A stretch of DNA of 41,672 nucleotides, taken from the NCBI GenBank assembly GCA_025774805.1, contig JALGZR010000017.1, forward strand, positions 1 to 41,672, given 5' to 3'. This document shows positions 1-41,672 of the stretch, in pieces. A program made the position numbers and the translations under genes. The notes below the pieces were generated by a model, which searched no databases, had not been told where the DNA came from, and worked only from the letters and a program-made list of their open reading frames with translations. This DNA comes from a bacterium (GTDB taxonomy: Bacteria; ARS69). Numbering within the stretch: position 1 is the stretch's first letter; the number at the start of each line of letters is the position of its first letter.

Positions 1-767
1 CCCCGGTAGTGGAGGGCGAAGTTCGTGCCCGCCAGCAGCATGAAGAAGAGGATGATCCAGTCGATCCGCGGATCGGCATAGGCCGCGATGGACGCGTTGC
101 GGGTGGAGAATCCCCCGGTCGCCATGGTCGTGAACGTGTGACAGATCGCGTCGTAGACGGACATCCCGGCGAGGGACAGGGCGACGGCCTCCGCCGCGGA
201 GATGACCATGTAGACCCCCCACAGGTAGGCGGCCGTCTGGCGGATGCGCGGGGTCAGCTTGTCCGGCGAAGGGCCGGGAGCCTCGGCCCGGTAGAGCTGC
301 ATGCCTCCGACTCCCAGCATCGGGAGAATGGCCAGGGAGAGGACGATGATCCCCATCCCCCCGATCCACTGGGTGAAGCTCCGCCAAAAGAGGATACCCC
401 GTGGGACGCTCTCGATGTCGGTCAGGATGCTCGCGCCCGTGGTCGTGAACCCCGACATCGTCTCGAAGAACGCGTCGGTGACGCCGGACGTCGTCCCCGA
501 GATCAGCAGAGGGAGACAGCCGAAGAGGGCCATCGCGGTCCACCCGAAGACGACGACGCCGAAGCCGTCCCGAATCCCGAGATCGAGGTTTCCGCGGGTG
601 AGCAAAAAGAGTCCGAGCCCCGCGACCAGGGTGATTCCGGAGGAGATCCCCAGGGCGGAGGCGTCTCCGTCGCCGTAGTGGAGAGCGACGCCGAGCGGAA
701 CGAGCTGGGCCAGCCCGATGAAGGCGATGAGCGCGCCGACCGCGTGGAGGACGCAGCGGAGATTCAT
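1..767 (-). CDS. trkH: Trk potassium uptake membrane subunit TrkH (3' part beyond window)
   Basis: TrkH is the inner-membrane K+-translocating subunit of the Trk system, gated by cytoplasmic TrkA. The reading frame starts at the ATG at 767 and is open to the left edge, giving about 255 of an expected 480 or so residues. The N-terminus ([18 protein letters not shown]) begins with a hydrophobic helix. Two pore-loop signatures are visible: [14 protein letters not shown] and, later, [13 protein letters not shown], which fit the first two selectivity-filter repeats of the Trk/Ktr family. It lies downstream of trkA on the same strand, with only a palindromic repeat (776-951) between them, so the two are probably one transcription unit. 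The region before the start has only a weak Shine-Dalgarno (TAAGG close to the ATG). Identification is firm; the missing C-terminus cannot be judged. Confidence 0.93.
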
Positions 768-775
768 GGCCTTAG

Positions 776-951
776 CCCGGAGGATTCATGAAGTATCTAC
801 TGCGATCGCGGATACGCTCCACCGGACGGGCGTCCTCGGGACACGTACCCTGCGACGTATCCTCAAGATACGCCTCGGGTCCAACCCCCTGCGGGTGCCC
901 GTCCGGTGGGCGTCTCCACGATCTCGCGACGATCTTCATGAATCCTCCGGG
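776..951 (-). repeat. Palindromic intergenic element A1 (trkA/trkH junction)
   Basis: A 176-bp imperfect palindrome with perfect 17-bp terminal inverted repeats, CCCGGAGGATTCATGAA at 776-792 and its reverse complement at 935-951. Inner arms CCACCGGACGGGC (819-831) and GCCCGTCCGGTGG (897-909) are also exact inverted repeats, and an apical stem CGTATC/GATACG lies at 856-861/867-872. The same sequence recurs in opposite orientation at 7840-8019 and at the right edge. It fills the whole space between the trkA stop codon (952-954, directly abutting) and the trkH start. It has no coding potential of its own. Confidence 0.9.
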
Positions 952-2298
952 TCAGGAGAACATCTTTTCGACCTTCGGGATTGCAGAAGGAAGGGCGAAG
1001 ACGATCACGTGGTCGTGGGGCTCCAGGACGGTGTCGCCGTCGGGAATGTCGAATCGATCTCCTCGGGAGTAGCCTCCGATGATCGCGTCCCGCGGGAAGC
1101 GGACCTCCTTGAGCGGCTTCCCGACGATGCGGGCCTTCTCGCTCGTCGCGAGCTCGAGAGCCTCCGCGTCGATGTCCTTGAACGTGGTCACCTGCAGGAT
1201 ATGCCCGCGGCGGACGAACCGGAGGATGGCGCCCGCCGCGGTCAGGCGGGGGTTCACCGCCGCGTCGAGGCCGATCTCCTTGAGGACCGGGATGTAGTCG
1301 GTCCGCTTCACCAGAGCGACCACCTTGCGGGCGCCCAGGTGGCGCGCCAGGAGCGCCGACATCACGTTCCTCTCCTCGTCGCCGGAGACCGCCGCGAACC
1401 CCTCGCAGTCGGACACACCGCTCTCGCGCAGGGCCGACAGATTCGTTCCGTCGCCGTGGAGAACGGTCGTCTTCACCAGCCGGGCCGCGAGCTCCTCGGA
1501 GCGGTCCCGGGTCGCCTCCAGGAGCCGAACCTCGAAACCGTTCGCCTCGAGCCGGGCACAGAGCCTTTCCCCGACCCCACCTCCACCCACGACGAGAACG
1601 CGCCGGTTTCCGGAGGTTCCCTCGTTCCGCTCCGTCGTCGTGACGAATTGCGCAAGGTCTTCCCTCGAGCCGATCATGTAGAGCCGATCGTCGGGGAGGA
1701 CCCGATGATTCCCCCGGGGGACGATCGTGTCCCCCTCCCGCACGATCGCGACCACGAGGACGTTGGCCCCCTCGTAGAGCTTCTTGAGCTCGGCGAGGCT
1801 CTTGTGGGCGAGAACCGACTCCTCGTCGACGCGGACTCCGATCAACCTCACCCGCCCCTCGTCGAACTCGACCGACTCGGTGACCTGTCGGCCCTCCATA
1901 AGACCGACGATCTCGCGGGCCGCCTCCTCGTCCGGATTGATGACGTAATCGATCCCGAAGGTCTCCATCACGAGCCGCACGTCCTCCTCGGAGCCGATCG
2001 CTCCGCTCAGGCGGGCGACCGCGCGGGTCACGCCGAGCCGGCCCGCCAGGCCGCACGCGGAGAGATTCACCGAGTCGTGCTGCGACACCGCGAGGAGGAG
2101 ATCCGTGTGATCGATCCCGTTCTCCCGCAGGACCACCGGATCGGTCCCGTCTCCCACGACCCCGAACACGTCCAGCTCGTTGATCCGGCCGATCATGGCG
2201 GCCTCCTTGTCGATCACCACGAGGTCGTGCCCCTCGCGGAGGAGACGCTCCGCGATGTAGGTACCGACCTCGCCCGCTCCGATGATCATGATCCGCAT
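952..2298 (-). CDS. trkA: Trk system potassium uptake protein TrkA (NAD-binding regulatory subunit)
   Basis: TrkA is the peripheral cytoplasmic regulator of TrkH; it binds NAD(H)/nucleotides through RCK domains and gates K+ flux. The 448-aa protein has the classic duplicated RCK_N-RCK_C layout. The first Rossmann motif is at the very N-terminus (MRIMIIGAGEVGTYIAERL), followed by TrkA_C around residues 140-215. A second Rossmann motif (VLVVGGGGVGERLCARL) sits near residue 235, and a second TrkA_C domain closes the protein. The start at 2298 is chosen because GGAG lies about 8 nt upstream and because the family begins exactly at MRIMIIGAGEVG; the open frame extends 42 codons further upstream without support. 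The stop codon TGA (952-954) directly abuts repeat A1, and trkH follows on the same strand. Confidence 0.95.
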   Translation of the reverse strand: MRIMIIGAGEVGTYIAERLLREGHDLVVIDKEAAMIGRINELDVFGVVGDGTDPVVLRENGIDHTDLLLAVSQHDSVNLSACGLAGRLGVTRAVARLSGAIGSEEDVRLVMETFGIDYVINPDEEAAREIVGLMEGRQVTESVEFDEGRVRLIGVRVDEESVLAHKSLAELKKLYEGANVLVVAIVREGDTIVPRGNHRVLPDDRLYMIGSREDLAQFVTTTERNEGTSGNRRVLVVGGGGVGERLCARLEANGFEVRLLEATRDRSEELAARLVKTTVLHGDGTNLSALRESGVSDCEGFAAVSGDEERNVMSALLARHLGARKVVALVKRTDYIPVLKEIGLDAAVNPRLTAAGAILRFVRRGHILQVTTFKDIDAEALELATSEKARIVGKPLKEVRFPRDAIIGGYSRGDRFDIPDGDTVLEPHDHVIVFALPSAIPKVEKMFS

Positions 2299-4461: not shown

Positions 4462-4640
4462 CTGGCCTGCGTTTCTCATCAGACGCGTCGCGAGGCTGCG
4501 GATCGTCGTGTCTGGCGAGGAGGTGGGGTGGTTTCGCCCGAGGCGGGGCCATGGCCCCGTCGCAGGGCGGAGGCACCTCAACGACGAAGCATGCGCGCCA
4601 GGCCGCCGCAGCAGCAGAGGCTGGTGAGCTTGCAGGCCAG
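4462..4640 (+). repeat. Palindromic intergenic element B1
   Basis: A 179-bp element bounded by CTGGCCTGC (4462-4470) and its inverted copy GCAGGCCAG (4632-4640). The apical hairpin CGGGGC/GCCCCG is at 4544-4549/4554-4559 with loop CATG. It matches elements at 7665-7838 and 27534-27715 over their whole length. It lies upstream of the 3482-4375 gene and just beyond the HU terminator. Together with that terminator it fills the 341-bp gap 4376-4716; the remaining 86 bp next to the gene show nothing recognisable. Confidence 0.88.
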
Positions 4641-7664: not shown

Positions 7665-7838
7665 GCCTGCTTTTCTCACCAGGCTCGTCGCGAGGCTGCG
7701 GATCGTCGTGGCTGGCGAGGAGATGGGGTGCTTTCGCCCGTGGCGGGGCCGTGGCCCCGTCGCAGGGCGGAAGCGCGCCAGCGACGAAGCCAGGCGGCCT
7801 CGCCGCTGCCGCAGCAGAGACTCGTGAGACGTGCAGGC
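7665..7838 (+). repeat. Palindromic intergenic element B2
   Basis: A 174-bp element running from GCCTGC (7665-7670) to GCAGGC (7833-7838). The apical hairpin CGGGGC/GCCCCG is at 7744-7749/7754-7759. It is nearly identical to elements at 4462-4640 and 27534-27715. It is joined head to tail with element A2, one base apart. A separate 7-bp stem (CGGCCGC 7621-7627 with GCGGCCG 7636-7642) lies between it and the M20 gene. With A2 it accounts for most of the 480-bp gap 7538-8017. Confidence 0.9.
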
Positions 7839-7839
7839 A

Positions 7840-8019
7840 AGCCCGGACTATTCATGAAGATCGTCGCGAGATTGCGGAGACGCCCACCGGACGGGCACCC
7901 GCAGGGGTTTGGACCCGAGGCGTATCTCGACGATACGTCGCAGAGTACGGACCCCGAGGACGCCCGTCCGGTGGCGTGGATCCGCGATCGCAGCAGATCC
8001 TTCGTGAATAGTCCGGGCT
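7840..8019 (+). repeat. Palindromic intergenic element A2
   Basis: A 180-bp element with 19-bp terminal inverted repeats, AGCCCGGACTATTCATGAA (7840-7858) and a one-mismatch inverted copy (8001-8019). Inner arms CCACCGGACGGGC (7884-7896) and GCCCGTCCGGTGG (7962-7974) are exact; the apical stem CGTATC/GATACG is at 7921-7926/7932-7937. Its right end overlaps the TAG stop codon (8018-8020) of the LTD gene. Confidence 0.9.
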
Positions 8020-9430
8020 AGGGTCGGTAGAGCGCCTTGACGCGAGCCCAGCTCTCCCGGGGGAGGGCGGACGGAGAGCCGTTCGGGGCGCCCGGAGAGA
8101 AGCTCCACCCGAAGCCGGCGTCGGAGGGACGGGTCCACTCCCCGTGACCGTCGGGCAGGCGGATCAGCGACTCATCGGCGCCGGCCTCCGAGCCGTAGGC
8201 GTGGGCGTCGGCCGTCACCCCTTGGACGTTCACCAGACGGACCTCGTCCCCGGTGTTGTTGAGGGAGAGTCCGCCGGTGGAGGCCACGGTCGCCCCGGAG
8301 GGAATCCCGGTCGGAGTACCCCCGCCGAAGACCACGAAGATCTCACCCGGGCCGAGGACCCCACCCTCGCCGAACTCGTGGCGAAGACCCGTCGCGTCGT
8401 GCAGGGACCACCCGGTGATGTCCTGGGGCTCTCCCGACCGGTTGATCACCTCGATGAACTCGTCGTCCGACGTGCTCCGAACGCCGTCGCCGTTCGCGTC
8501 GCCCTCGAGGCCCGCGGGGGGGTCCGCGAGAATCTCGTTCAGCGCGATGGGGGAATCGCTCCCCCCGACGACGATCTCGACCTCGTTCGTCTCCTCGAGA
8601 AGCGCCCCGTCCGACACCCGGACGACGACGCCCAGGACGGTTCCCTCCGGCTGGGCGGGAATCACGATCTCCCACGTCCCGAGGTGGACCGTGCCCTCCA
8701 CCAGGCTCATGGGTTGCGACTGCACGCCGCCCCCGTCGACCGTGAGCCGGAGGACGCACTCGGCGACGCCGTCGGCGTCGCCCGCGGTCGCGCGGACCCC
8801 GATCGGGTCGGCGCTCGTGGGAAACGTCGGCTCGATCTCGACCGAGAGGATCTTCGGGGTCGCGGGGCCCCCGTTCTGTCCCCCGGGAGTGGGCTGGGGA
8901 CCCGTCCCCCCCGGAGCCAGCGCGTCGAACGGAGTCCATGCCGGATCGCCGTCCGGAAGCCGCCCGAGGGAGACGTCGGTGTTGACGTCACCCGAGGTGT
9001 ACGTGAGCTCGTCCAGGAGTGTGGTGTCGCCCCCGGAGGCACGGAAGAGGGAGACCGTGTCCCCCGAGTTGTTGAGGGAGAGCCCGACGGCGGGGAAGCC
9101 GTTCGCCGCCTCCCAGTCGACGGCCAGCTCTCCCGTCAGGAAAAGGTGCTCACCGGGGGCGAGGCTGCCCGAGAGACCGATTCGGGGGGTGCTCGGTCCG
9201 GCTCCGTCCGTCACGAAGTGATCGGTCAGATCCGCGGGCGCGGAGCCGGCGTTGAAGATCTCGACCCACTCGTCCTCCGAGGACGAATAGATGCCGTTGC
9301 CCGTCCAGTCGGTACCGGGGGCCGGAAGCAGCTCGTTGAGCACGAGCTGGGCGCCGGCCCGATCGGCGAAGGCGGCCGCCGCGACCAGCAGTGCAGCGCC
9401 GGCCGCGGGGACCCGTCGTGGGAACCGCAT
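8018..9430 (-). CDS. Exported protein with two lamin-tail domains
   Basis: A 470-aa secreted or surface protein. Residues 1-27 are a signal peptide (cleavage likely after DRAGA). The first LTD follows at once (LVLNELLPAP, then SSEDEWVEIFN, to about residue 185). A central Ig-like region spans about 195-285. A second LTD (IALNEILADPP, then DDEFIEVINRSGEPQDITGW) runs to the end. LTDs are Ig-fold modules found in exported bacterial proteins, often with nucleases or surface enzymes; here no catalytic domain is seen. Asp-rich segments (DANGDGVRSTSDDE) look able to bind calcium. The ATG at 9430 has GGAGG 8 nt upstream. The protein ends in KALYRP with no FlgD-type C-terminal domain, unlike the neighbouring LTD proteins. 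Confidence 0.8.
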   Translation of the reverse strand: MRFPRRVPAAGAALLVAAAAFADRAGAQLVLNELLPAPGTDWTGNGIYSSSEDEWVEIFNAGSAPADLTDHFVTDGAGPSTPRIGLSGSLAPGEHLFLTGELAVDWEAANGFPAVGLSLNNSGDTVSLFRASGGDTTLLDELTYTSGDVNTDVSLGRLPDGDPAWTPFDALAPGGTGPQPTPGGQNGGPATPKILSVEIEPTFPTSADPIGVRATAGDADGVAECVLRLTVDGGGVQSQPMSLVEGTVHLGTWEIVIPAQPEGTVLGVVVRVSDGALLEETNEVEIVVGGSDSPIALNEILADPPAGLEGDANGDGVRSTSDDEFIEVINRSGEPQDITGWSLHDATGLRHEFGEGGVLGPGEIFVVFGGGTPTGIPSGATVASTGGLSLNNTGDEVRLVNVQGVTADAHAYGSEAGADESLIRLPDGHGEWTRPSDAGFGWSFSPGAPNGSPSALPRESWARVKALYRP

Positions 9431-13747: not shown

Positions 13748-13851
13748 GCCGCGGTTCTCACCCGGTTCGTCGCGAGGCGCGAATCGTCCTGTCGCGCGAG
13801 GAGAGGAGGTGCCCCGGCCCGAGAGGGGGCCGGGTAAGAGATGCAGGCTAG
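13748..13851 (+). repeat. Diverged palindromic element B4
   Basis: About 104 bp related to the B elements: the left part has GGTTCTCACCCGG then CGTCGCGAGGC, and the right end TGCAGGCTAG (13842-13851) is exact. The middle is shortened and has a different apical stem, CCCGGCCC (13813-13820) with GGGCCGGG (13827-13834). This stem could also end transcription of the six-gene operon. The TAG stop codon of the phosphatase gene (13848-13850) lies inside the right terminus. Confidence 0.6.
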
Positions 13852-15539
13852 GGCGCGGGGGAGCTCCGGGCGGCCCGTGCGAAGGCCGGATCGGGCTCGG
13901 AGGAGTCGTCTCGGAGCCAGCGCCCGTCGGTCTCGGGCGAGACCGGAGTGTGCCGGGTGACCCAGGCCTCCAACGCCTGGCGCATGGTCTTGCCCGTGTA
14001 GGTCTTCAGCGAGTCGGGCACGTCGGGGAGCATCGTCAGGTCGGCGTTTCCTTTGGCGAGGAAGTCGCTCGTCACCACGCGATACGTGGAGTCCGGATGC
14101 CAGATCCTCCCCTGGACCTCGAGATAGGTCACCCGATCGAAGTCGGGACGGGTCTTGTTGTAGACCACCTTCCCTCCGGCGATGTAGAGACCGTGATGGC
14201 TTCCGCTGATCCGGGTCTCGATCACTTCGCGCAGAAGGCGGCCCGACATCCGGAAGATCTCCATCCTGTTCCCGAAGGGAAGCACCTGGAAGATGTCCCG
14301 GGGAGTGATGGGCCCCGGACCGAGCTCGTCGCGGATTCCGCCCAGGTTCGTGAACGAGAAGTCCGCCCCCGTCTCCTCGAGCATCGCGTCGCAGACCGCG
14401 TTGCCCATGGGCGTCTCACCCGATCCCCCCCGGGTGAACTTCCCGGTCGCCCGGCCGATCACGCTGTCCATCCCCTCTTCCGCCGCCTCGACCTCCCGGC
14501 TGATGAAGTCCGCCATCTCGGGGTCGGGCCAGAACTGATCCTCGAAGAAGGTCACGAGATAGCCCCGCTCCGTCCAGAACTCGTAGTCCACGATCTGGTT
14601 CGTCTCGGTGTCGATGGAGAGGGTCACGATGCCGGCCCCGGACCCCCTTCCGTAGGTCTGGAAGAGGAGCGTGTGGGTGTTCGCCATGGCCCACGCGTCG
14701 TCGAAGCCCTTGTGGATGTGCCCGCAGAAGAACGCATCGATGCCCTCCACCGAATGGGCCACGTCCACGGCGAGCGACCGGGGCTCGTCGTCCGCGGGCC
14801 ACCCCGTGCGGTTCCGGTACTCGAGGTGCTCCTCGGGGTCGTACGGGATCCCCACGTGCCCCACCGCCAGGATGACGTCGACGTCCCGCGCGCGGAGGGC
14901 CCGGACCACGTCCCGCGCCACGGGGGCCATCGGAGCGAAGTCGAGTCCGGCGACGTTTGCCGGGAAGCTCATGTTTTCCGTCTCCGGGGTGATCAGCCCG
15001 AAGATCCCCACGCGGAGGTTCCCGAAGTCCTTGATGATCCAGGACTCGACCCAGTCGACGATTCTGCCCGTCTCTTCGCTGTGGAGATTCGCGGCCAATA
15101 CCGGGAACTCCGCCCTTTCGACGAGGGCCATGCAGTTCTCCTTCCCCTCGTCGAAATCGTGGTTTCCCAGAGCGAGAAAGTCGTAGCCGGCGGCGTTCAT
15201 GAAGTCGATCACCGCCCGTCCCTTCGTCAGCGTTCCGACCGGTGTGCCCTGGAAGAAGTCTCCGGCGTCCATCAGGAGGAAGTGACCCTCCCCCGCCTCG
15301 ACGTCCCGCCGCAGGCTCCTCAGCAGCGTGACCATCGATGCCGCCCCTCCGAGGCGCGGAGGGTACTCTCGGTTCATGTAGGTGGCGTCCGACGGATCGA
15401 TGCCCCCGTGGATGTCGTTCGTGTGGGTCACGGTGAGCTTCACGATCTCCGCGGACGCAGACCCCGAAGAGGACGCGGTGAGCGCCGCGAGAAGCGCGAT
15501 CGCGGTGAGTGCCCGACTGAGTACTCTGCGCCGCTTCAT
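13848..15539 (-). CDS. 5'-nucleotidase / metallophosphatase family protein
   Basis: A 563-aa exported phosphatase of the UshA/5'-nucleotidase family, expected to release phosphate from nucleotides outside the cytoplasm. Signal peptide: residues 1-30 (ends GSASA). The N-terminal calcineurin-like domain has all dimetal motifs in order: TNDIHGG near 40, MDAGDFFQGT near 90, GNHDFD near 125, then GHVG and CGHIH. The C-terminal substrate-binding domain starts near residue 355 (GRATGKFTRGGSGETPMGN) and includes FTNLGGIRDEL and VLPFGNRM. The start at 15539 (MKRRRVLSRAL) has GGAGG 8 nt upstream. That SD lies at the end of the upstream barrel gene, 4 nt away, so this is the last gene of the six-gene operon. 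Its substrate range (nucleotides versus other phosphoesters) is not readable. Confidence 0.92.
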   Translation of the reverse strand: MKRRRVLSRALTAIALLAALTASSSGSASAEIVKLTVTHTNDIHGGIDPSDATYMNREYPPRLGGAASMVTLLRSLRRDVEAGEGHFLLMDAGDFFQGTPVGTLTKGRAVIDFMNAAGYDFLALGNHDFDEGKENCMALVERAEFPVLAANLHSEETGRIVDWVESWIIKDFGNLRVGIFGLITPETENMSFPANVAGLDFAPMAPVARDVVRALRARDVDVILAVGHVGIPYDPEEHLEYRNRTGWPADDEPRSLAVDVAHSVEGIDAFFCGHIHKGFDDAWAMANTHTLLFQTYGRGSGAGIVTLSIDTETNQIVDYEFWTERGYLVTFFEDQFWPDPEMADFISREVEAAEEGMDSVIGRATGKFTRGGSGETPMGNAVCDAMLEETGADFSFTNLGGIRDELGPGPITPRDIFQVLPFGNRMEIFRMSGRLLREVIETRISGSHHGLYIAGGKVVYNKTRPDFDRVTYLEVQGRIWHPDSTYRVVTSDFLAKGNADLTMLPDVPDSLKTYTGKTMRQALEAWVTRHTPVSPETDGRWLRDDSSEPDPAFARAARSSPAP

Positions 15540-26623: not shown

Positions 26624-27478
26624 TCACCCCTTGAGACCGGTGTGGGTCAGACTCTCGATGATCTGTTTTTGGGCGAAGAAGTAGGCGACGAGGAGCGGGG
26701 CGATGGAGAAGACCGCCGCCGCCATCATCAGTCCGTGCTCGGTCCCCTCCTCCTGGGCGAAGAAGGCGAGCCCCACCTGGATCGGACGGATGGAGTCGGA
26801 GTTCGTCATCACCAGGGGCCAGAGGAAGCTGTTCCACGTGCTGATGAACGTGAACAGGCAGACGGTGGTCAACGCGGCCCGCGACAGCGGGAGGATCATC
26901 GTGAAGATGAAGCGGATCGGGCCGCACCCGTCGATCACCGCGGCGTCCACCAGATCCCGGGGAAACGTCTTGAAGTGCTGGCGGAGGAGGAAGATCGAGA
27001 ACACGTGGGCGAGCCACGGAACGATGAGGGCGGAGTAGTCGTCGATCCACCCGTCCCCCCCTCCTCCCGGCAGGTTGTAGAGAAGGATGTAAGAGGAGAT
27101 GATGTAGACCGGCTCCGGAACCATCATCGTGGAGAGAAACGTGTTGAACCATCCCTCCCGGTGGCGGAAGCGGAGAAAGGCGAACGCGAACGCGGAGAGC
27201 CCGGAGGTGATCACGACTCCCACGACGATGCACCCGGCGACGAAGATCGTGTTGAAGAAGTACCGGGGGAACGGGACGCTGTTCCACGCCATCGGGTAGT
27301 TCTCGAACCTCACCTCGCCGGGAAACCACGTGGGAGGTGACTGATAGAGGTCGGCCGGCCCCTTCAGCGAGGTCGAGACCATCCAGTAGAAGGGCAGGAC
27401 GAAGGAGACCGCCCCGACGATCAGCAAGACGTGGACGGCCCAGTTTCGGGGGATCGCCCGAGAGAAGCCGGCCTGCAT
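26624..27478 (-). CDS. Carbohydrate ABC transporter permease (MalG/UgpE type)
   Basis: A 284-aa inner-membrane permease with six predicted helices. The cytoplasmic EAA loop that contacts the ATPase is visible as DAAVIDGCGPIRFIFTMILP. The family N-terminus (VHVLLIVGAVSFVLPFYWMV) and the typical NTIFVAGCIVVG segment are present. It pairs with the 27712-28692 permease and the binding lipoprotein. Notably the ATG at 27478 and the codons for MQAG lie inside the terminus of a B-type repeat remnant (27470-27537), so the start region is repeat-derived. The only SD-like sequence is GGGTGAG within that repeat. A downstream start would shorten only the cytoplasmic tail. Confidence 0.92.
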   Translation of the reverse strand: MQAGFSRAIPRNWAVHVLLIVGAVSFVLPFYWMVSTSLKGPADLYQSPPTWFPGEVRFENYPMAWNSVPFPRYFFNTIFVAGCIVVGVVITSGLSAFAFAFLRFRHREGWFNTFLSTMMVPEPVYIISSYILLYNLPGGGGDGWIDDYSALIVPWLAHVFSIFLLRQHFKTFPRDLVDAAVIDGCGPIRFIFTMILPLSRAALTTVCLFTFISTWNSFLWPLVMTNSDSIRPIQVGLAFFAQEEGTEHGLMMAAAVFSIAPLLVAYFFAQKQIIESLTHTGLKG

Positions 27479-27537
27479 CTCTCACCCGCCTCTGCTGCGG
27501 CGGCGGGTCGCCGCGCCGGATGAGGACTGCAGGCTAG
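27470..27537 (-). repeat. Internally deleted B-type element (B3')
   Basis: A 68-bp remnant: the left end GGCCTGCATCTCTCACC (27470-27486) followed by CGCCTCTGCTGCG matches the reverse complement of the right end of a full B element. Its right end TGCAGGCTAG (27528-27537) is the B terminus. It overlaps the left end of element B3 by the shared CTAG. The start codon of the MalG-type permease lies inside it. Confidence 0.7.
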
Positions 27538-27715
27538 CCTGCATTTCTCACCAGGCTCGTCGCGAGGCCGCGGACAGGCGTATATGGCGAGGAGATGGGG
27601 TGCTTTCGCCCGAGGCGGGGCCGTAGCCCCGTCGCAGGGCGGAAGCGCGCCAGCGACGAAGTCAGGCGCGGCTTTGCCGCGGACGCAGCAGAGGCGGGTG
27701 AGATATGCAGGCTAG
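27534..27715 (+). repeat. Palindromic intergenic element B3
   Basis: A 182-bp element bounded by CTAGCCTGCA (27534-27543) and TGCAGGCTAG (27706-27715), an exact inverted repeat. The apical hairpin CGGGGC/GCCCCG is at 27616-27621/27626-27631. It separates two permease genes of one importer. The TAG stop codon of the upstream permease (27712-27714) lies inside its right end. Confidence 0.9.
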
Positions 27716-28692
27716 GCATAGTGCACCCTCTTCTCCACGACCTTCCGCTGGAAGAGAGTGAGGGCCAGGATGATCGCGAACAGGACCAGGGCCACCGCCG
27801 AGGCGTAGCCCATGTTTCCCTTCTCGCCGAAGCCCTGCTCGAAGAGGTAGTAGACGATCACGTTCGTCGTGCCCATGGGACCGCCGGTGAGCGGGCCGGT
27901 CATGAGGTAGATCGGGGCGAAGACCTGGAAGGAGAGAATGGTCGTCATCACCACGACGTAGAACGTGGTCGGAGTGAGAAGCGGCCAGGTGACGTGCCGG
28001 AAGATGCCGAGGCGACCGGCGCCGTCGATGCGGGCCGCCTCGTAGTAGTGCTCGGGGATGCTCTGCAGCCCCGCCAGGAAGATCACGACGTTGTAGCCGA
28101 TTCCGCGCCAGACCGAGACGAGGATGACACAGACGAGGGCGAGGCTCGGACCCCCCGCCCAGGCGGGAAGCTCGGCGCCCACCGTCCCCGCGAGGAGCTG
28201 GAAGATCCCCGTCGGCTCCTCGAGCCAGAGCGGCCCCGATTCCCCGAGCCGCCCGATGACCGAGTTCGCGAAGCCGAACCGCGGATGGAAGATGAGCTTC
28301 CACACCATGGAGACGGCCACGAACGAAGTCACCACCGGCAGAAAGTAGATCGTTCGGTAGAGGCCGAGGGCCCTCACCCCCCGGCGCAGCAGGACGGCGA
28401 AGAGGAGGGAGGTCGCCACCGAGAGCGGGACGGATCCGGCCACGAACCAGAGCGTGTTCGCCGCGCTCTGCCAGAACTTCGGATCGGAGAAGAGCGTCTC
28501 GTACTGTCCGAACCCCGCGAAACCACGAATGCGTCCGAAGCTCGCGTCGAAGAAAGAGACGGCCAGAGCGGAGACGATGGGAAGGAGCCGGAACGTGAAG
28601 ATGATGACCGCGGCCGGGAGAAGGAACAGGTAGGGCATGACCCGACCCCATCGGCCTCGCTGGAGCGGACTCGTCGGCTCGAGGTCGGGCAC
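27712..28692 (-). CDS. Carbohydrate ABC transporter permease (MalF/UgpA type)
   Basis: A 326-aa inner-membrane permease. After a short cytoplasmic tail the first helix (VMPYLFLLPAAVIIFTFRLL) is followed by five more. The EAA loop is EAARIDGAGRLGIFRHVTWP, and NTLWFVAGSVPLSVATSL is the usual second-helix region. The GTG at 28692 is taken as start: GAGGA lies 4 nt upstream and a strong promoter at 28739-28767 places the transcript start near 28732, excluding longer frames. It is the first gene of the importer operon; no ATPase gene follows, so a shared MsiK/UgpC-type ATPase must be encoded elsewhere. Element B3 sits right after its stop codon, inside the operon. Confidence 0.9.
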   Translation of the reverse strand: MPDLEPTSPLQRGRWGRVMPYLFLLPAAVIIFTFRLLPIVSALAVSFFDASFGRIRGFAGFGQYETLFSDPKFWQSAANTLWFVAGSVPLSVATSLLFAVLLRRGVRALGLYRTIYFLPVVTSFVAVSMVWKLIFHPRFGFANSVIGRLGESGPLWLEEPTGIFQLLAGTVGAELPAWAGGPSLALVCVILVSVWRGIGYNVVIFLAGLQSIPEHYYEAARIDGAGRLGIFRHVTWPLLTPTTFYVVVMTTILSFQVFAPIYLMTGPLTGGPMGTTNVIVYYLFEQGFGEKGNMGYASAVALVLFAIILALTLFQRKVVEKRVHYA

Positions 28693-41529: not shown

Positions 41530-41561
41530 GGGCGCGCTCGGACCACCGGGCCCAAGGTCCT

Positions 41562-41672
41562 AGCCCGGACTATTCATGAAGGGCCGTCGCGAGATCGTGG
41601 AGACGCCCACCGGACGGGCACCCGCAGGGGCTCGAACCCGAGGCGTATCTGAACGATACGTCGCAGGGTGCG
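41562..41672 (+). repeat. Palindromic intergenic element A3 (cut by the window edge)
   Basis: The left 111 bp of an A element: terminal repeat AGCCCGGACTATTCATGAA (41562-41580), the inner arm CCACCGGACGGGC, and apical stem CGTATC/GATACG at 41644-41649/41655-41660. It is preceded by CT, forming the same CTAG seen at other element ends. Same orientation as A2. It lies 32 bp upstream of the carbamate kinase gene; its right half lies outside the window. Confidence 0.88.

Follow-up and report, generated by a model that had tools for sequence, protein, structure and literature searches.

Palindromic MITE-like elements flush with stop codons: target choice at CTAG as a very probable explanation

Why should dispersed palindromic repeats of two families begin exactly where the reading frames of neighbouring genes stop? 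The question was raised by a stretch of 41,672 nucleotides (the window; contig C87, positions 1-41672) from a bacterial genome assembly of 5.1 Mb in 284 contigs. Four contacts between an element and a gene 3' end were listed in the original prediction (A1 with trkA, A2 with the gene of a Lamin-tail-domain (LTD) protein, B3 with a permease gene, B4 with a phosphatase gene), and it was proposed that insertion targets CTAG or stop regions, that insertion truncated the genes, or that the element serves as a signal for 3' end processing. All four contacts are present as described (Table 1). The stop codon, which the prediction placed within the element or overlapping its end in three of the four contacts, lies just outside the TIR, in the CTAG flank. 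In a fifth case, A3, the next gene stops at the right CTAG of the element, beyond the window.

Elements and gene ends in the window

Family A has the TIR CCCGGACTATTCATGAA and copies mostly of 176 bp. Family B has the TIR CCTGCATTTCTCACC and copies mostly of 173-174 bp, with additional short forms of 47-100 bp. Both families are strongly palindromic, and a transcript of either would form a hairpin. As is usual for MITEs, the elements are small (47-240 bp), carry TIRs at both ends, have no coding capacity and are dispersed in many copies, with about 40 copies of A and 224 exact ends of B in 5.1 Mb. Two pairs of elements in the window are stacked head to tail with one target tetramer for each pair, namely the short B copy with B3 (CTAG, 27472-27711) and B2 with A2 (CAAG, 7666-8017); the stacking looks as if the flank of one copy was the target for the next.

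Table 1. Elements, flanks and adjoining genes in the window
Feature	Position	Strand	Description
trkH	3-767	-	Cut by contig start; starts 4 bp past the distal flank of A1; TrkH by Pfam
A1 left flank	772-775	+	TTAG (coding strand CTAA); decayed duplicate of TCAG 952-955
A1	776-951	.	Family A MITE, 176 bp, TIR CCCGGAGGATTCATGAA; between trkA and trkH
A1 right flank	952-955	+	TCAG; holds trkA stop TGA (952-954, - strand)
trkA	952-2298	-	TrkA_N, TrkA_C; flush with A1
B1	4466-4636	+	Family B MITE; flanks CTGG (4462-4465) and CCAG (4637-4640); no flush gene
B2	7666-7837	+	Family B MITE; flank CAAG (7838-7841) common to B2 and A2; not flush
A2	7842-8017	+	Family A MITE, 176 bp; right flank CTAG 8018-8021
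LTD protein gene	8018-9430	-	TAG stop 8018-8020, in the CTAG flank of A2
B4	13748-13847	.	Decayed 100-bp family B copy; right flank CTAG 13848-13851
5'-nucleotidase/metallophosphoesterase gene	13848-15539	-	TAG stop 13848-13850, flush with B4
Short B copy	27472-27533	.	Family B, 62 bp; CTAG 27534-27537 common with B3; not flush
B3	27538-27711	+	Family B MITE, 174 bp; CTAG at either side
ABC transporter permease gene	27712-28638	-	BPD_transp_1; TAG stop 27712-27714, flush with B3
A3	41564-41672	+	Family A copy; continues beyond the window to 41801 of C87; left flank CTAG 41560-41563

Distances to stops and the target word

Distances were measured in 60 stretches, none longer than 20 kb, which together with the window gave 1.23 Mb of the same genome. 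The stretches were picked around known copies, so that no genome-wide density can be taken from the sample, while the distances are unaffected by that choice. Genes were modelled with a coding-potential caller trained for this analysis (914 genes, 85% coding), and TIRs were paired into 84 elements (67 B, 17 A). The distance from a TIR to the stop facing it showed a sharp peak at zero, made up of 27 B ends and 8 A ends, with the remainder scattered from 2 to more than 1000 bp. Elements at zero bases from a stop numbered 34 of the 84 and gave 37 flush gene ends (including elements that overlap a predicted gene). Uniform intergenic placement would give about 0.4, and the original claim that flush contacts are hard to obtain by chance thus holds across the sample. 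Random distances at other copies had been named as evidence to the contrary; 50 of the 84 copies are indeed not flush, 12 of the copies lie between divergent genes, yet the peak at zero remains. The stops of ftsA and ftsZ are both directly followed by B copies (contig C156, stretch L175, 15233-16779 of the stretch).

The bases next to the TIR were CTAG at 40 of 65 B ends and 25 of 40 A ends, and most others differed by one base. The target can be written YTAR, mostly CTAG, which bears out the proposal that insertion targets CTAG or stop regions; stops are hit because a C followed by a TAG stop reads CTAG. Among the 37 flush stops 34 were TAG, two TGA and one TAA, compared with TAG in 282 of 914 genes (31%) of the sample (p about 1e-14), and TGA stops are twice as common as TAG in the genome. 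Facing 3' ends that are not flush had 25 TGA, 13 TAG and 2 TAA. In three copies, each between convergent genes, both stops were flush, which is expected because CTAG reads the same on both strands and served both genes.

CTAG is depleted 12-fold in the 1.23 Mb (303 observed against 3640 expected from base composition), and element flanks account for 118 of the 303. Copy-free CTAGs comprised 70 at stops, 78 intergenic and 37 intragenic sites; those at element flanks comprised 57, 53 and 8, respectively. The flush fraction was 17/30 for elements with CTAG at both flanks and 34/84 for all elements, against 70/148 for copy-free noncoding CTAGs, with no difference in either case (p 0.42 and 0.34). 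Given the depletion of CTAG and the share of noncoding CTAGs that are stops, the flush rate is that of random CTAG targeting. Intragenic CTAGs were depleted at element flanks relative to copy-free sites (8/118 against 37/185, p 0.0015). Random choice among CTAGs, together with removal of gene-breaking insertions, is therefore enough to explain the placement.

These comparisons bear on the proposed 3' end processing signal or, more broadly, a functional 3' end element (terminator, mRNA-stabilising hairpin or processing site) selected next to stops. The hairpins that both palindromic families would form in a transcript, and the many copies placed directly after a stop codon, are what such a signal would look like. 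A 3' end function, however, would be indifferent to the type of stop, and the dependence on TAG in a genome where TGA prevails argues against it. Elements are no more often flush with a stop than copy-free CTAG sites are, and they lie in tandem, convergent and divergent gaps in similar proportions (p 0.37), with copies also found between divergent genes. Nor was there a significant preference as to which end of the element touches the stop (B 9:3, A 2:7; 21 oriented cases). A signal function is unnecessary to account for the contacts and is very unlikely.

The reading that we hold to be very probably correct is that A and B are non-autonomous MITEs with IS1380-type ends, and that their contact with stops results from YTAR targeting, target duplication and purging. 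A transposase acting in trans would insert A and B copies at YTAR, with CTAG much preferred, and would duplicate the 4 bp. CTAG is an avoided word in this GC-rich genome, where about half of the copy-free noncoding sites consist of C and a TAG stop. An insertion at such a stop would place one CTAG at the end of the gene and another at the far end of the element; with the target duplicated, the neighbouring gene would keep its stop and its protein would be unchanged. Insertions within genes would be purged. Zero-distance contact would thus be the product of target specificity, duplication and purifying selection.

Gene ends in relatives and duplication of the target

Orthologues of the flush genes were compared in four element-free genomes of the same family, and for nearly all genes compared the ends fell within 0 to about 3 residues of each other. 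The same last residue was found for the permease (4/4), the LTD protein (2/2), FtsA (3/3) and FtsZ, and the trkA orthologues ended at 0, 0 and +1 residues. Orthologues ending alike mean that the flush genes were not truncated, where tested. The proposal that insertion shortened the genes, with the TAG end of the element as the new stop, has in its favour that the flank supplies the TAG at which the flush gene stops, and a gene interrupted in that frame would end there too. Most orthologues tested share the end of the flush gene, however, and the TAG flank belongs to the duplicated target and not to the element; truncation as the general cause is hardly credible. For the permease, trkA, LTD, FtsA and FtsZ genes it is refuted by the orthologue ends. 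The exception was a cysteine desulfurase whose orthologues extend 5-20 residues further with a variable tail, and this gene may have been truncated by insertion.

An empty site was found between trkA and trkH of a related genome. It reads TTCTCCTGA-CGGC-ATG, compared with TTCTCCTGA-(176 bp)-CTAA-GGCC-ATG here, and taking out A1 (176 bp) and one tetramer gives back the trkA-trkH spacing of the relative. On the coding strand the flanks of A1 are CTGA and CTAA, a near-perfect 4-bp duplication with one mismatch. Judged by this alignment, made with a relative from another genus, the trkA stop predates the insertion of A1.

Target duplication, as expected of MITEs, was further seen as CTAG pairs in this genome and as direct pairs elsewhere for family A. 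CTAG, a palindrome, stands on both sides of 30 of the 84 copies in the own genome, and for family B the duplication is seen in CTAG/CTAG pairs only. The A end was found in more than 100 genome contigs, by their titles from Planctomycetota, Nitrospirota, Acidobacteriota, Myxococcota, Proteobacteria, Eisenbacteria, Krumholzibacteriia and others. Its flanks in these genomes were CTAG (117), TTAG (37) and CTAA (7). Seven exact direct non-palindromic pairs (CTAA/CTAA or TTAG/TTAG) were obtained for A in other phyla against one inverted pair, and direct matching of flanks there was above permutation (p 0.0002). A ends in other genomes were flush with long open frames in 42/173 cases, against 203/2838 control YTAR sites; these controls include intragenic sites and overstate the excess, which is about 1.6-fold against CTAG sites alone (89/573). 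The interiors of A copies differ by host, though the ends are common to many phyla, and many of the copies lie near contig ends (loci L196-L311), as expected of repeats that break assemblies. B ends gave one match in viral contigs.

The flank pairs also bear on a narrower duplication, of TA only, with the outer C and G belonging to the element ends and CTAG thus partly supplied by the element. Among the flank pairs of the 84 elements no exact non-palindromic direct duplication was found; inverted symmetry scored slightly above direct, and inverted matching exceeded permutation. This inverted symmetry speaks for a TA-only duplication, as does a B copy of 48 bp, from a related genome, with the inverted pair TTAG at its left and CTAA at its right. 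Against it stand the excess of direct over inverted pairs of A in other phyla and the CTGA that the trkA empty site has before insertion. A TA-only duplication is quite unlikely. The 48-bp copy is a lone perfect B-type palindrome (locus L189, 1500-1548) in genome G004, of the same family and otherwise almost without A or B ends. At some elements the two decayed flanks form an inverted complementary pair, such as CTGG/CCAG at B1 and CGAG/CTCG elsewhere, as if the palindrome reached into the flank or correction had occurred across the hairpin.

Relation to IS1380 and to known systems

A search for IS1380 transposases covered 24 genomes, of which nearly all carry an A end. One locus (L314) is a 1703-bp IS1380 (transposase NF033539, E 1.2e-93) with the TIR CCCGAATTATTCATAAG beside TTAG, and 12-13 of 17 positions match between this TIR and that of A. 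The IS1380 ends of a second genome are CCCGCATTTCTCATCA beside CTAA, TAG or CTAG. The head of B could be aligned with gaps over about 40 bp to the left ends of these elements (L332, L324), and none of 2000 shuffles was as good. With TIRs that resemble IS1380 ends, A and B are most plausibly MITEs derived from two lineages of IS1380. From these similarities we infer that an IS1380 transposase moved the copies, presumably by cut-and-paste. An intact transposase flanked by A or B ends, as a candidate autonomous partner, was not found in the own assembly, whose only trace of IS1380 was a transposase fragment (C17:1747-2085) without such ends. An intact partner may possibly be absent as a missing repeat from an assembly this fragmented. 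Among 116 genome-contig loci no full-length IS with exact A ends was found, only MITE-sized pairs.

The kind of element is ordinary and its placement is explained. A repeat can mimic a 3' gene signal and yet be a neutral insertion, when insertion duplicates a target word that is itself the stop; in GC-rich genomes a palindrome next to a stop codon need not be functional. As a rule, any element that targets YTAR should pile up at TAG stops, most of all in CTAG-poor sequence. No paper describing this stop-codon effect was found in the literature searched, the coverage of which is partial. It is doubtful that YTAR specificity evolved as a safe-harbour strategy that steers copies to stops in CTAG-poor, GC-rich genomes; if it did, harmless insertion by duplication would explain the spread across many phyla. 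The presence of A-type ends in many bacterial phyla marks a widespread MITE group, linked here to IS1380.

Several known systems can be compared. REP and REPIN sequences moved by RAYT are likewise short palindromic intergenic repeats in high copy, and the 47-bp forms of B, two inverted ends back to back, resemble a REP doublet. That the elements are such palindromes, moved by a Y1 tyrosine transposase with CTAG as a terminal tag, is nevertheless extremely improbable: no Y1_Tnp (PF01797) was found in the genome, while control genomes gave matches, the CTAG tag is present at both ends, 4-bp target duplications exist, and the TIRs match IS1380, with ends like those of DDE-type IS. The Chunjie MITE of Geobacter uraniireducens, of about 178-235 bp and inserted in an operon (as summarised in PMC10969869), resembles A and B in size, in having inverted and direct repeats and many intergenic copies, and in its operon insertion (here trkA/trkH). 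In piggyBac, to which IS1380 serves as outgroup, TTAG and CTAA have been reported as rare duplications beside TTAA (PMC10813416). The piggyBac TIR often starts with CCC and its target is of the 4-bp TTAA type; unlike A and B, which prefer CTAG, it is eukaryotic and strongly prefers TTAA. IS1380 itself (PF13701, NF033539) shares with A and B the YTAR flanks and the TIR, CCCG(N)ATTATTCAT(A/G)A or that of the second genome, and differs from these elements of 47-240 bp in that they carry no transposase.
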